This document shows positions 55,970 to 60,785 of a stretch of DNA of 64,000 bases, one piece after another; within the stretch, counting starts at the first letter, position 1; every line of letters begins with the position of its first letter. The notes under the pieces are model-generated. The model saw only the letters and a list, made by a program, of their open reading frames with translations. It was not told the origin of the DNA and ran no database searches. This DNA comes from Pseudomonadales bacterium (GTDB taxonomy: Bacteria; Pseudomonadota; Gammaproteobacteria; Pseudomonadales; Ketobacteraceae). The stretch is from the NCBI GenBank assembly GCA_002708905.1, contig PAPM01000025.1, forward strand, positions 186,001 through 250,000, in the 5' to 3' direction. The position numbers and the translations under genes are program-made.

Positions 55970-58156
55970 TCAGACAATGGAACCCGCTTCCATTATCTGA
56001 TCAAAAATCGGTGGCAATTCATCGCCGGGCAGGGGGCGATAAAAGTAGTAGCCCTGCACATAGTCACAGCCTTGTTGGCGCAAGTAGTCGAGCTGCTCAA
56101 CGGTTTCCACTCCCTCGGCGATCACATTCATCTTCAGATCATGGGCCAGACGAATGACCGATGCCGTGATGGCGCGGCTTTCTTCATGATCCGGCAGTTC
56201 ACGCACAAAGGTCTGATCCAGCTTCAGGTTATCCACCGGTAACGATTTTAAATAAGTCAGGGAGGAAAAGCCGGAGCCGAAGTCATCCAACGACACGTTG
56301 ATACCCATGCGTCTGAGCTTGCTCAGCATGGTAACCACTTCATCCATCTGCTCCAGAAAGCTGGTCTCAGTGATTTCAATTTCCAGTTGCTCCGGCGGCA
56401 GACCAGAATCCTGCAAAGCCTGCTCGACAATATCAATAAAATCTTTCCGCCTGGCCTGGCAGGCTGAAACGTTCACGGCCACCACCACTTTAATACCCTG
56501 CCCCGCAAACTGCTGCGCATAGGCACAGGCTGTATTCAGTACCCACAGCCCGATTTTATGAATCAGTTCACTTTCTTCTGCCAACGGAATAAAGATGGCG
56601 GGCGAGATAAAGCCTTGCTCCGGGTGCCGCCAGCGAATCAGTGCTTCGAGGCGGACAAAGGTTTCCTCCGCCAGACAAATCTGGGGTTGATAATACAATT
56701 CAAACTGGCCCCGTTGAATCGCCGCCTCCAGATCATTTTCCAGATTAAGTCGATTCAGGAAACGGGCTCCAATGGCCGGTTTGAAAAACTGGCACTGGTT
56801 GCGGCCAAGCTCCTTGGCATGGAACATGGCCAGGTCTGCGTGCTTCATCAAAGTTGTGGCATCCAGGCCATCGGCCGGGAATAACGCTACACCGATACTT
56901 GCCGACAGGCGGAAGTCGGTGCTGTCGATGGTGACCGGCGGTATAAACGAATCCAGCAAACGTTGGGCAATGGTTTCGATATTGCCCAGTTGCTTCACCT
57001 GCGCCACCACCGCAAATTCATCACCGCCCAGATGCGCCACGATATCCGTGCGTTTCACACAATGGGCAATACGGGCCGCGAATGTATTCAGCAAAAAATC
57101 TCCGGCATGGTGCCCCAAACTGTCATTCACCCGCTTAAAGTGATCCAGATCCACGTAATACAGAGCCAATTGCTGGTGTTGAGTTGTTGCCTGCTCAATC
57201 AATTGGGTGATCTTACGCCAAAAGCTGTGGCGGTTTGGCAGCTGTGTCACCGGATCTACATCTTCAAACCGCTCTTGCCCATGATTACCGTAATGGACAT
57301 CAGTAACATCATTGGCGATACAGATGTAATGGCTCACCGTTCCTTCGGAGTCCAGCACCGGTCCGATATTTAGCCGAATCCATTTTTTCTCTCCGGTTAT
57401 GCCCTGGCTTTCAAATTCACCTTCCCAATAGGAGCCTGAGGTGACCACCCGCTTGATTTCCGGATAAGCGCCTTCGGCTTCCTGCAGCCAGCGCTCCAGC
57501 ACCGAACGTCGCTGACCGGATGCTCCGGATTCAATATGAAAAATATCCACCAACGCTTTGTTGGCAACCTGCATACGCCCCATGGCATCGCAGATCAGAA
57601 CGGCCGAAGCATTACCCGCCACGGTGTTGGCGATAACCTCCAGCGACTCCTGATTCAATACCCGCTGCTCCAATGCAGCCTGCAATTCACGCTGCTTTTG
57701 GCTCAGTTCCAGCGCCAGTTTTTCCTGGCCCAGTGCCAGTTCCCGGGCACGCTGATAGACTTGCCTTTGATCTTCAAAATTACTGCTTAGGTCGACAATG
57801 GCCAGCAACGAACGCCGCGCTGCCACCAACGCAAATGCCTCCAGCGGTCTGGCCACCGTCTCGCCTCCCTCTGACCAGACACCGGATGCCAATCTCGAAC
57901 CGGATCGCTTGTCGCTTGGACTTTCCCAATAGGCTTCGGCGTCGATCAGAAAATTTTCCAGAAAGGCCGATTGCATGGCCAGATCATACTGCTGGTGTTC
58001 GACGGGAGAATAAAAACTCTTAAACCACAGCGGCAAGCGACCTATGGGACGAAAACGGGACGAGCAGATGCGTTCAAACAAGGCAATGTCCAGGCCTTCC
58101 AGCACATCGGAGAAAAAGCCATCCGACAAGGAATCTTCCGCGATGCTCCCACTCAT
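55970..58156 (-). CDS. PAS-GGDEF-EAL c-di-GMP signalling protein
   Basis: The 728-residue cytoplasmic protein has an uncharacterised N-terminal part of about 120 residues, a coiled coil (about 125-175), a PAS domain (about 175-290), a GGDEF domain with LGGDEFA (intact A-site) and an EAL domain with RLEALIRW, the metal-binding E and D residues (VSLDDFGSGFSS) and LKLDQTFV. Both enzyme domains look complete, so the protein could make or degrade c-di-GMP. It is the last gene of a four-gene minus-strand operon and starts on the stop codon of the GTPase gene (ATGA overlap). Confidence 0.9.
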   Translation of the reverse strand: MSGSIAEDSLSDGFFSDVLEGLDIALFERICSSRFRPIGRLPLWFKSFYSPVEHQQYDLAMQSAFLENFLIDAEAYWESPSDKRSGSRLASGVWSEGGETVARPLEAFALVAARRSLLAIVDLSSNFEDQRQVYQRARELALGQEKLALELSQKQRELQAALEQRVLNQESLEVIANTVAGNASAVLICDAMGRMQVANKALVDIFHIESGASGQRRSVLERWLQEAEGAYPEIKRVVTSGSYWEGEFESQGITGEKKWIRLNIGPVLDSEGTVSHYICIANDVTDVHYGNHGQERFEDVDPVTQLPNRHSFWRKITQLIEQATTQHQQLALYYVDLDHFKRVNDSLGHHAGDFLLNTFAARIAHCVKRTDIVAHLGGDEFAVVAQVKQLGNIETIAQRLLDSFIPPVTIDSTDFRLSASIGVALFPADGLDATTLMKHADLAMFHAKELGRNQCQFFKPAIGARFLNRLNLENDLEAAIQRGQFELYYQPQICLAEETFVRLEALIRWRHPEQGFISPAIFIPLAEESELIHKIGLWVLNTACAYAQQFAGQGIKVVVAVNVSACQARRKDFIDIVEQALQDSGLPPEQLEIEITETSFLEQMDEVVTMLSKLRRMGINVSLDDFGSGFSSLTYLKSLPVDNLKLDQTFVRELPDHEESRAITASVIRLAHDLKMNVIAEGVETVEQLDYLRQQGCDYVQGYYFYRPLPGDELPPIFDQIMEAGSIV

Positions 58157-58668
58157 AGCGACCGTGCCTCAGCATGATCCACCAGCATTTGCGCCAGCAC
58201 TTCAAACGCATGCTCAACGTTGCGCCCGGTTTTCGCACTGGTTTCCATCACCGACCAGCCGGCCTCGATGCAAGGCTGCAATTCCTCGCGGCTGATTCTG
58301 CGCTCGGCTTCCAGGTCCGTTTTGTTGATCAGCAATAGAAAAGGTACGGAATTCAGGGTCTCCCGTACCTTTTGATTCAAACTGAGGGCAATCTCCAGGG
58401 TTTTCGGTCGGGTGGCATCGATCACCAGGAAATAACCGGACGCGCCCCGCAGATAGGTGGTTCTGAGTTCTGCAAATTCGTCCGGCCCTTCCAGATCCCA
58501 GATCACAAATTGCAGAGTCTGATCTGCCAACGCCACTTCTTTTTTATCGATCTTGACGCCGATGGTTGTTTGATATTTTTCGTCGAAACCGTCCGTCACA
58601 AAACGACGGACCAGGCTGGTCTTGCCTACCGCGAAAGAACCAATCAAACATATTTTCTTACTGATCAT
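58153..58668 (-). CDS. Ras/Rab-like small GTPase
   Basis: The 171-residue protein has a complete P-loop (GSFAVGKTSL), a switch I threonine in TTIGVKI, switch II WDLEGPDEF, NKTD for guanine specificity and ETSAKTG. In switch II the position of Ras Q61 is proline, so intrinsic hydrolysis should be low and a partner may supply it. The ATG at 58668 overlaps the end of the OmpA-type gene by 11 bp. The frame is open further up to 58710, but the family N-terminus begins with ISKKICLIG. Confidence 0.9.
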   Translation of the reverse strand: MISKKICLIGSFAVGKTSLVRRFVTDGFDEKYQTTIGVKIDKKEVALADQTLQFVIWDLEGPDEFAELRTTYLRGASGYFLVIDATRPKTLEIALSLNQKVRETLNSVPFLLLINKTDLEAERRISREELQPCIEAGWSVMETSAKTGRNVEHAFEVLAQMLVDHAEARSL

Positions 58669-60229
58669 ACAGCACCTGCATCGACACGATCCGCTGCTCG
58701 TCACCATCAAGCTCTGAAGCGGGCAATGCCCCCAGTCCCCACAGCAGCACTTTTTCTGCTACTACCCCATTGGCCTGCAACTGCTCAAACACAACCTGGG
58801 CCCGCTCACGGCTCAACTGGCGATTGGTTGCCTCGTTGCCGGTTCCGTCGGCAAAGCCGGTGAGAATCAGTTGGTAATCCGTAACACCCGCCGGCTCTGC
58901 CAAATCCGCCAGGGAATTTGCCTTGACTACCATACTGGCCAACACCGCGGAATCTTCTGCCACCAATTTACTGGAGGCCGACTGAAAATGCAGGCGCATG
59001 CCCTGTAGCTCAGCAACGGTTTGTTGCCACTGGGCAATGGCCTGTTGCCGGGGGCTCGGCTCTGCCACCGGAATGGGCTTTTCCACAACGGGAATCACCC
59101 GGTCTTCCACCCTCACCTGAAAACCGGTCAAATCCAGCTGACCCAATATCGCTTGCGGACTGGGGTCAGCTTCTGACCTTAAGGTTACCAACTGCAGGGA
59201 TCGCCCGACCCGTTTCTGGTCCAGGATCACCATGCCCTGCTGTTCAAGTGCCTGCATCACCTGCCGCTGCTGGTCATAGACCTGATAGGTACGGGTGATC
59301 CACAGCCCCATTCCCACCACCGCCAGCGCAATAAAGCCGTAGGCGAGCCAGGGCACCGACCGCCCGCGCTGCGCTTCTTTCTGCAACAAACCGGTTTTAA
59401 GCAGGCCCTGCACAGGCTCCAGCTGGGTTTTATCCCCGTCAAAGCCCACCAACAGTGAGGCGTGATCAAGATGAATCTTTTCTATGATCTCGCTTAGTTT
59501 CGTTGTCACTTCCGCAGCGGGTGTACCGCGAACGGCACCTGCCAGCATGGCAAAAGGGCCCGCAACAATAATCAGCGTATACTCACCAAAGCGAATATGA
59601 TCAATGCACTGTTGCTGATCCTTGTGGAACGCATCGCAGGCAAAATCATTGATGGCTGTAAGCATGGCAGAGACCAGTTCCGGATCTTCACGCGCAATCT
59701 GGGGTACACAGACATCCTGCAGCAACAATCCCGTTTCCCGATGAATCAACAACACCTGTTCAACGCGATACTGCAGCGATTTAATCAGTACATATTCTGC
59801 GTAACTCTTGCCGGCACGCCAGGCTTGAAAGCGCCAGCGCCAGGAACGGAAGCTTAAACCTTCGCTCAAAACCTGGTTGAGGTTCTGCACCATGTCCTGC
59901 AAGGCTGCAGCCACCGCCTTTCGAATAGCCGGCCCCATCACCGGGAAAATAACATTAGTGATGCGATCCGGATGTTCTTTTATTGAGGTATCGATGGCGG
60001 CATCCACCACAGATGAAAGCGACTGCGCCAGGCTATCGTCTTTGCTGGCCCGTTGCTCAAGCGCCTCGGAAATCACTTCGGTAACCAGGGTGGTCTGGTC
60101 TTTTTCCACCAAACGCTGGATAACCTGGTCCGCTTCCGGCCCCAGCAACAGGGTCCGCAAGCGCTCGACTTGCTCTTCCGGCTCAACCTTGACGGAAGCT
60201 TTGATCTGGGACACCGGCGCCACAGGCAT
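58658..60229 (-). CDS. membrane-spanning roadblock-like/OmpA peptidoglycan-binding protein
   Basis: The 523-residue protein has a cytoplasmic part of about 300 residues, one membrane helix at about 300-320 (LAYGFIALAVVGMGLWI), and a periplasmic C-terminal OmpA domain with TGFADGTGNEATNRQLSRERAQVV, the usual peptidoglycan-binding helix. Within the cytoplasmic half, LIHRETGLLLQDV and FGEYTLIIVAGPFAMLAGAVRG look like a roadblock/LC7 fold; roadblock proteins such as MglB regulate small GTPases. That similarity is by eye only. It is coupled to the GTPase gene and follows the coiled-coil gene by 7 bp. Confidence 0.78.
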   Translation of the reverse strand: MPVAPVSQIKASVKVEPEEQVERLRTLLLGPEADQVIQRLVEKDQTTLVTEVISEALEQRASKDDSLAQSLSSVVDAAIDTSIKEHPDRITNVIFPVMGPAIRKAVAAALQDMVQNLNQVLSEGLSFRSWRWRFQAWRAGKSYAEYVLIKSLQYRVEQVLLIHRETGLLLQDVCVPQIAREDPELVSAMLTAINDFACDAFHKDQQQCIDHIRFGEYTLIIVAGPFAMLAGAVRGTPAAEVTTKLSEIIEKIHLDHASLLVGFDGDKTQLEPVQGLLKTGLLQKEAQRGRSVPWLAYGFIALAVVGMGLWITRTYQVYDQQRQVMQALEQQGMVILDQKRVGRSLQLVTLRSEADPSPQAILGQLDLTGFQVRVEDRVIPVVEKPIPVAEPSPRQQAIAQWQQTVAELQGMRLHFQSASSKLVAEDSAVLASMVVKANSLADLAEPAGVTDYQLILTGFADGTGNEATNRQLSRERAQVVFEQLQANGVVAEKVLLWGLGALPASELDGDEQRIVSMQVLYDQ

Positions 60230-60236
60230 TACGCAA

Positions 60237-60785
60237 TCACTCTGCGTTGGTCAGGTTATCGGCCATGCTTGCCAGCATCGCCGCCAGAGTTTTCCGATCC
60301 GCTTTATTATTGGTTAACTCTTCCGATGCGGCGCTGATCTTTGCCATAACATCCTCGTAGTTTTTCTGCACCAGTTGCCGCAATTCATCCAGCTCCTGCT
60401 GTATCTGCCGCTGCAGCTCAGCATCGGCAGTCATAAGTTCTTCACGGGTTTGCTGAAGGTTTTCAGTAAGCGCATTGAATTGCTGTGCGGAATGCTGTTG
60501 GTACTGGGTCAGTTGAGCGGTGAACTCCTGCTTCAGATCCCTGAGCGCTTCACTGAAACTGTCGTTCATTTCCTGCAGTTTTGTTTGCAGGCTGGTTTCC
60601 ATTTCATCTTCACGCTGGTGCACTGCCCGCAGCTGTTCACCAAACAGCAAATCCCGAATCTCCAGGAGTTGCTGGCTGGCTTGCTGTGCAGGTTCCTGTT
60701 TAGTCTGCTCCAAGCTAGCCTGTTCCATGGTAGCCTGTTCCTGTTCAGACTCTGTTGACTCAGCGACGGCCGTTTTCTTATTCAT
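60237..60785 (-). CDS. coiled-coil protein, first gene of the GTPase operon
   Basis: A 182-residue, glutamine- and glutamate-rich protein with a long predicted coiled coil (heptads from about residue 40 to 150) and no membrane helix. I know no family for it. The ATG at 60785 has AGGGAAT at the right distance; a GTG at 60824 is an alternative. It ends 7 bp before the roadblock-OmpA gene, so it belongs to the same transcript. A scaffold or adaptor role is a guess. Confidence 0.72.
   Translation of the reverse strand: MNKKTAVAESTESEQEQATMEQASLEQTKQEPAQQASQQLLEIRDLLFGEQLRAVHQREDEMETSLQTKLQEMNDSFSEALRDLKQEFTAQLTQYQQHSAQQFNALTENLQQTREELMTADAELQRQIQQELDELRQLVQKNYEDVMAKISAASEELTNNKADRKTLAAMLASMADNLTNAE

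Follow-up and report, generated by a model that had tools for sequence, protein, structure and literature searches.

On the minus strand of the window, a 64,000-nt stretch of DNA from contig PAPM01000025.1 of a Pseudomonadales bacterium, an operon of four genes runs from position 60785 to position 55970 (Table 1). In this order the genes encode a coiled-coil protein (P0001), a membrane protein ending in an OmpA domain (P0002, hereafter the OmpA protein), a Ras-family GTPase (P0005) and a PAS-GGDEF-EAL protein (P0004, the output enzyme). The coiled-coil gene is separated from the OmpA-protein gene by a 7-bp gap, the end of the OmpA-protein gene overlaps the start of the GTPase gene by 11 bp, and the GTPase and output genes overlap by 4 bp (ATGA). 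All four genes, their coordinates and spacing, the membrane helix and the OmpA domain are as given in a preliminary description of this DNA. That description also held that the gene set belonged to no named system, which is incorrect; the set had already been described in 2014 as the Group 1 Rup neighbourhood (PMC4316618).

In that survey, Wuichet and Sogaard-Andersen noted the absence of the G3 glutamine from Group 1 Rups. Their neighbourhood comprises rup, a coiled-coil protein, a protein that joins a domain to a membrane helix and an OmpA domain, and a signalling output, named as typically a diguanylate cyclase/phosphodiesterase or a histidine kinase with an invariant Gln in its N-terminal region (PMC4316618). 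The window operon shares this gene content. Its GTPase likewise lacks the G3 Gln, and a near-invariant Gln is found in the N-terminal region of its output enzyme, where Gln135 is the candidate counterpart of the Gln noted in 2014 (PMC4316618). By gene neighbourhood and motifs, the window operon is assigned to the Group 1 Rup systems. The survey counted 0 of 121 Rup-clade sequences coupled to MglB and listed the cytoplasmic domain of the OmpA protein as a conserved domain of unknown kind; at its date, it records no experimental study of any Rup (PMC4316618). Later experimental work on a Group 1 Rup operon was not found in the open-licence PubMed Central literature, which is not proof of its absence. 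The new result reported here concerns the domain left without annotation in 2014, for which a longin-type fold is predicted.

Table 1. Positions in the window of the operon genes and their features.
Feature	Position	Strand	Basis or occurrence
Coiled-coil protein P0001, 182 aa, ATG start	60237..60785	-	relative in 84/85 loci
IRDLLFG box of P0001, residues 43-49	60639..60659	-	regular expression
OmpA protein P0002, 523 aa: helical domain, longin-fold domain (predicted), one membrane helix, periplasmic part, OmpA domain	58658..60229	-	
LRTLLLG box of P0002, residues 24-30	60140..60160	-	regular expression
All-helical conserved domain of P0002, residues 17-151, with FPVMGPAIRKAV block	59777..60181	-	
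Longin/roadblock-fold domain of P0002, residues 152-285	59375..59776	-	predicted model
Predicted membrane helix of P0002, about residues 291-312	59294..59359	-	hydropathy
OmpA domain of P0002, residues 415-501, with GFADGTG...LSRERA	58727..58987	-	Pfam
Rup-type small GTPase P0005, 171 aa	58153..58668	-	
G3 motif DLEGPD of P0005, residues 58-63; Asp kept, Pro at the Ras Gln61 position	58480..58497	-	
Output enzyme P0004, 728 aa: PAS-like N-domain (predicted), PAS, GGDEF, EAL	55970..58156	-	
N-domain of P0004 (residues 1-123, PAS-like by prediction) and long helix (124-170)	57647..58156	-	in outputs of 72/85 loci
Gln135 codon of P0004, near-invariant	57752..57754	-	69/72 rows; Arg138 nine bases further, 71/72
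GGDEF domain of P0004, residues 300-454, GGDEF motif intact	56795..57259	-	Pfam
EAL domain of P0004, residues 474-708, signature residues present by eye	56033..56737	-	Pfam

Conservation of the operon and its GTPase

The cytoplasmic domain of the OmpA protein has at least 495 relatives in genome contigs. The best 80 of these, together with 5 loci from relatives of the window genome (L002-L006), make up the 85 loci considered here. The five derive from a set of 57 genomes, 18 of which matched the whole OmpA protein; 12 that matched by the OmpA domain only were left out, and the window's own was set apart. Because the search models were built from these five relatives and the window, the five match by construction. 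The coiled-coil gene is present in 84 of the 85 loci (79 of 80 without the model-building relatives) and the GTPase in 80, on the same strand in 78 and on the opposite strand in 2 (75 of 80 without the relatives). Two of the five loci without a GTPase, L036 and L055, are cut inside the OmpA gene by the contig end, and two more, L051 and L093, have a strong GTPase match elsewhere in the genome; for the fifth, L099, no GTPase was found in the genome. By record title, where labels of metagenome-assembled genomes (MAGs) can be wrong, the loci include members of Gammaproteobacteria, Cyanobacteria, Nitrospira, Acidobacteria, Desulfobacteraceae and other deltaproteobacterial MAGs, Calditrichia, Gemmatimonadota and Thermoleophilia.

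The association also holds at the level of whole genomes. Among 369 genomes of the window's class, its own included, 30 contain the domain, 37 contain the GTPase at a preset cut-off of E 1e-15 and 29 contain both (Fisher P 1e-34, not corrected for kinship). An alternative table (29,1;1,338) used a GTPase cut-off picked after the scores had been seen, and the preset value was used instead. The domain and the GTPase lie no more than 1.5 kb apart in 27 of the 30 genomes that hold the domain; in G322 and G337 both are present and unlinked. The GTPase occurs without the domain in eight genomes, seven of which give weak scores; the exception, G419, scores at the level of the core group. The operon is thus conserved far beyond chance, and the linkage on which the preliminary description depended is found well outside the window, whether it is counted by locus or by genome.

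P0005 is a single-domain GTPase, below the 240-aa limit of Group 1 Rups, with a Pfam Ras match of E 8.7e-36 (scanned without the first residue) and the motifs GSFAVGKT, TTIG, DLEGPD, NKTD and SAK (eukaryote-like G1-G5). Compared with solved structures, its best 60 of 836 matches are all Rab-type entries. The catalytic Gln of Ras is replaced by Pro62 in the window, and across 81 GTPase frames of 80 loci (regular expression) the Ras-61 position is Gln in 4 and Glu in 46. As the GTPase lacks this Gln, hydrolysis would need help in trans. The G3 Asp (D58) is invariant in 38 aligned rows, and the G3 motif is of the Rup type (DxxG), unlike the MglA form in which this Asp is replaced. No natural fusion of the GTPase with the longin-fold domain occurs in the loci that were read, among which no systematic fusion search was made. 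A long GTPase frame at L070 was considered as a GTPase fusion and taken, on its coordinates alone, for an overlapping open frame.

Predicted fold of the cytoplasmic domain

An AlphaFold2 model of P0002 residues 1-292, built from 54 sequences, has a mean predicted local distance difference test score (pLDDT) of 82.7 and a predicted template modelling score of 0.59. Over residues 151-280 the ten-residue blocks have pLDDT values of 77-98, with one block at 69. From residue 143 onward the modelled elements are a helix, two strands, a helix, three strands and a helix, so that the predicted domain has the longin/roadblock order b-b-a-b-b-b-a with flanking helices. In a Foldseek search each of the 16 rows with E <=0.001 is a longin/roadblock protein or a complex that contains one, among them TRAPP, Mon1-Ccz1, Ragulator, Asgard Roadblock3, GATOR1-Rag and an AP-1 sigma subunit; MglB appears at rank 20. 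That every chain in these rows has the longin/roadblock fold is in part our assumption.

Foldseek's candidates were then aligned with VIA-align, a tool whose own note gives a best Z of 7-8 as typical for models without a clear match. The top match is Sec22b (Z 13.5, root-mean-square deviation 2.5, 121 aligned residues), followed by Vamp7 (Z 13.3), a chain of the Fuzzy-Inturned/Rab23 complex (13.0), Ykt6 (12.6) and a chain of the TRAPP Bet3-Trs33-Bet5-Trs23 complex (12.5). MglB reaches Z 11.1 with 107 aligned residues and stops at residue 262, near Ragulator (11.0) and Asgard Roadblock3 (10.8). Most longin alignments extend to P0002 residues 283-289. In longins, an extra C-terminal helix is described as replacing the N-terminal helix of roadblocks (PMC10933270), and the domain is therefore called longin-like within the longin/roadblock superfamily. 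The preliminary description had called the domain roadblock-like by eye. Its expectation of a GTPase-regulator fold in the cytoplasmic domain agrees with the model, by structure prediction only, and its roadblock call holds as far as the predicted fold goes; longin-like is the better name. Since longins fit better than roadblocks, an analogy with guanine nucleotide exchange factors (GEFs) and their platforms, such as TRAPP, Mon1-Ccz1 and Fuzzy-Inturned, is at least as apt as one with a GTPase-activating protein (GAP) of the MglB type.

Sequence searches return little for this domain. Pfam finds scattered weak families among the 54 cytoplasmic-domain members (25 of 59 shown), one member matching Intu_longin_3 at E 0.035. 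A profile search of the PDB with the domain gave 18 weak matches, the best at E 0.24 (ribosomal eS1/S3a, ATP synthase delta and hexokinase).

Output enzymes and the remaining parts

The Pfam matches of P0004 are PAS (about residues 182-287), GGDEF and EAL, and the first ~170 residues of the window protein have no Pfam match. The single PAS domain of the preliminary description is thus present, and a second, predicted PAS-like domain precedes it. The model of this N-domain (pLDDT 92.3) shows a modest likeness to PAS/LOV domains that are followed by a long helix. A hidden Markov model (HMM) of the window N-domain finds it in 72 of the 85 loci. With the window's row included, Trp44 is conserved in 72/72, Ser91 in 72/73, Gln135 in 69/72 and Arg138 in 71/72. 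The GGDEF and EAL signatures look intact by eye, so P0004 could have one of the two activities or both.

The enzymes attached to the N-domain are diverse. Of 67 full-length proteins, consisting of the window's own and 66 of the 72 hits (genome-contig loci, at least 250 aa), 31 contain HATPase_c, 18 contain GGDEF and EAL, 13 contain HD_5 (HD-GYP type), 3 contain Sigma54_activat and 1 contains SpoIIE. One GTPase-side domain thus precedes several kinds of enzyme. The HD-GYP, sigma-54 activator and SpoIIE phosphatase outputs go beyond the two types named as typical in the 2014 description (PMC4316618), to which we also add the predicted longin/roadblock fold of the cytoplasmic domain and the predicted PAS-like fold of the output N-domain. 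The locus L057, which by title belongs to a Klebsiella pneumoniae MAG, has a Rup operon whose output, of 371 aa, is of the kinase type seen in the Nostoc and Calothrix loci; this contig was probably placed in the wrong bin.

At other loci (L142 and L147, also L006, L044, L045 and L077) the GTPase is followed by a member of a second effector-like family, which has a short N-terminal domain that looks sensor-like by eye. The HMM of the window N-domain reaches the L148 copy of this family at 7e-5, the sole one among the copies tested. In three split genomes (L148, L149 and L151) the GTPase lies apart from the OmpA gene and adjoins a protein of this second family. This arrangement suggests that the GTPase and its effector are the tightest pair, with the OmpA and coiled-coil proteins forming a second part.

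The OmpA and coiled-coil proteins may in turn be linked by a short motif. A box resembling LRxLLxG is found near the N-terminus in 82 of 84 coiled-coil proteins, as against 22 of 1680 shuffled sequences, and in 64 of 85 OmpA proteins, as against 11 of 1700. The regular expression was written after the sequences had been seen, and shuffled N-termini match it in about 1% of cases. With the coiled-coil HMM, matches to OmpA proteins are few and weak (E up to 1 for 3 of 85; E up to 1e-2 for 4 of 30 loci). An hhalign comparison between the families leaves the N-terminal boxes unaligned, so the case for a shared box is made by the post hoc expression and its shuffles. The box may be a common docking element.

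The OmpA protein of the window has a single hydrophobic segment and a Pfam OmpA domain (E 4.3e-8) whose motif retains the usual Asp and Arg (GFAD...RERA). In OmpA domains these two residues serve in wall binding. OmpA proteins of 885-974 aa (L114, L117 and L119, which are L141-L143) have an extra helical N-terminal part and additional periplasmic stretches, and are not GTPase fusions; the periplasmic units of L141-L143 are repeated and BON-like by eye. Shorter versions, of 299-438 aa, adjoin the GTPase at L006, L040, L118 and L120, and that of L006 has no OmpA region in the alignment.

A possible mechanism, its alternatives and related systems

The reading that we favour, with moderate confidence, is that Rup is loaded by an envelope-linked platform of longin fold, which by analogy would be GEF-like, and that Rup in turn drives the output enzyme. 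We infer every binding step in it, as well as the exchange activity, the direction of signalling and the effect on cyclic di-GMP (c-di-GMP). Through its periplasmic OmpA domain, the single-pass inner-membrane OmpA protein would sense the cell wall or be held by it. Its cytoplasmic longin-fold domain would act as a docking platform for Rup, most likely on the nucleotide-exchange side, and Rup, which is Rab-like, soluble and has no evident lipid anchor, would be loaded with GTP at the membrane. Rup-GTP could then bind the PAS-like N-domain of the output enzyme and change its activity, which in the window would alter c-di-GMP through GGDEF-EAL. GTP hydrolysis would be completed in trans, and Gln135 of the output N-domain is the kind of residue that the 2014 authors proposed for this. 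The coiled-coil protein, which shares the LRxLLxG box with the OmpA protein, might link to it or compete with it.

Several observations weigh against this proposal. No sequence relationship of the domain to longins or roadblocks was detected (hhalign against 5 MglB proteins gave 0.1%), so the fold assignment rests on one predicted model, and some longin/roadblock proteins are described as having roles other than the regulation of GTPases (PMC10933270). The structure matches of the output N-domain are modest: PAS/LOV chains lead, with a best Z of 8.6 and a best Foldseek E of 3e-3, none being at or below 0.001. L051 and L093, whose GTPase gene lies elsewhere, both keep Gln135, an observation that is neutral as to a catalytic role of this residue. 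Wall binding may hold for only some members, because 10 of the 85 OmpA proteins have no clear membrane segment by hydropathy and the OmpA-motif expression matches 55 of the 83 that are at least 450 aa long. In several cyanobacterial members (such as L047 and L062-L064) GHTS replaces the usual GHTD, and peptidoglycan binding may be altered or lost in these. One genome with the domain (G231) has a weak GTPase match (E 4e-10), and in another (G322) the domain and GTPase are unlinked, with the OmpA gene cut by the contig end. Given the lack of linkage in these two genomes and the separate GTPase of the three split genomes, the parts need not form a permanent complex. Rups in other settings may be undercounted, because GTPases adjoining the domain were the source of the GTPase profile.

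The longin-fold domain could instead make no contact with the GTPase and serve in dimerisation or as a scaffold for the coiled-coil protein, the GTPase working only with its effector and the operon being shared because all act in one pathway. The split genomes, in which the GTPase keeps company with the second effector-like protein, fit such an arrangement, and the non-GTPase roles just mentioned provide a precedent. The nearly complete co-occurrence of domain and GTPase across genomes, which extends to the split systems checked, argues against this alternative, which we regard as unlikely. A second alternative is that of the preliminary description, in which an MglB-like roadblock GAP domain switches the GTPase off at fixed envelope sites and thereby sets polarity. 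MglB is among the structural matches of the domain, it has been reported to act as both GAP and GEF for MglA (PMC11016934), and a GTPase without the catalytic Gln needs help with hydrolysis. Longins, however, match better and over a greater length, Pfam Robl_LC7 has no match to the window P0002 at E up to 1, and the hhalign comparison with MglB is equally unfavourable here. The GTPase has the Rup form of G3, whereas the MglA of this same genome has TPGQ. Nothing links the operon to poles or motility, and the polarity idea is not supported; we regard the MglB-like alternative as distinctly improbable. A chance or convergent resemblance within the PAS/profilin/roadblock type of sheet architecture, with the domain an unrelated regulatory one, would accord with the silent sequence searches and with the broadly similar element order of the operon's own PAS-like domain, but is very unlikely, since models made by the same method separate the two (this domain retrieves longin/roadblock proteins first, the output N-domain PAS/LOV) and the best Z stands well above the range typical of models without a clear match.

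If the platform reading holds, it would bear on a puzzle that dates from 2014, namely a Rup GTPase with neither the catalytic Gln nor the usual roadblock partner; the predicted longin/roadblock fold offers the missing partner. It would also provide a general route by which an envelope-linked protein controls c-di-GMP and kinases, and the predicted fold makes the system testable with four purified proteins. A wider claim is tentative, and we consider it possible rather than probable: that Rups across several phyla share an operon with a membrane-spanning, wall-tied longin-fold exchange factor, that the Rab-longin GEF pairing predates eukaryotic membrane traffic or is independent of it, and that bacteria use one PAS-like effector domain to couple a generic envelope sensor to c-di-GMP, histidine kinase, sigma-54 or phosphatase outputs. 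Rups are described as the prokaryotic group closest to Rab/Ras/Rho/Ran (PMC4915359), and for this reason a bacterial Rab-like GTPase with a longin-fold partner would bear on the origin of the eukaryotic pairing.

On the evidence of the model, one parallel is with the eukaryotic longin-domain Rab GEFs (the TRAPP core, Mon1-Ccz1 and Fuzzy-Inturned), which likewise pair a Rab-like GTPase with a membrane-tied longin-fold partner. In contrast to these, the bacterial partner spans the membrane, has an OmpA domain and shows no detected sequence relationship to them, and its proposed GEF role is assigned by analogy. Asgard archaea also contain Rab-like GTPases together with longin and roadblock proteins in a prokaryote (PMC10933270). 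In the Asgard strain MK-D1, however, GTPase genes are generally not in operons with longin genes (PMC10933270), whereas here they share one in several bacterial phyla by record title. The actinobacterial conservons (Cvn) are operons of a GTPase, a roadblock-type protein and a sensor kinase (PMC13343842), and the 2014 authors drew this analogy (PMC4316618). Unlike the window operon, which by Pfam content has none of these, conservons have an MglA-family GTPase, a free MglB-type protein and a CvnC protein.

The MglA-MglB system resembles the window operon in that a small Ras-family GTPase gene adjoins a gene for a longin/roadblock-superfamily protein. It differs in that the G3 Asp is kept here and the partner, which lacks a Robl_LC7 match and is closer to longins, has a membrane helix and an OmpA domain. 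The window genome also has a separate pair of this kind on contig 36, at about 4.9-6.3 kb, where an MglA (G3 TPGQ) is followed by an MglB-type protein with Robl_LC7 (loci L132 and L134). An additional small protein, roadblock-like by eye, is found beside this pair.

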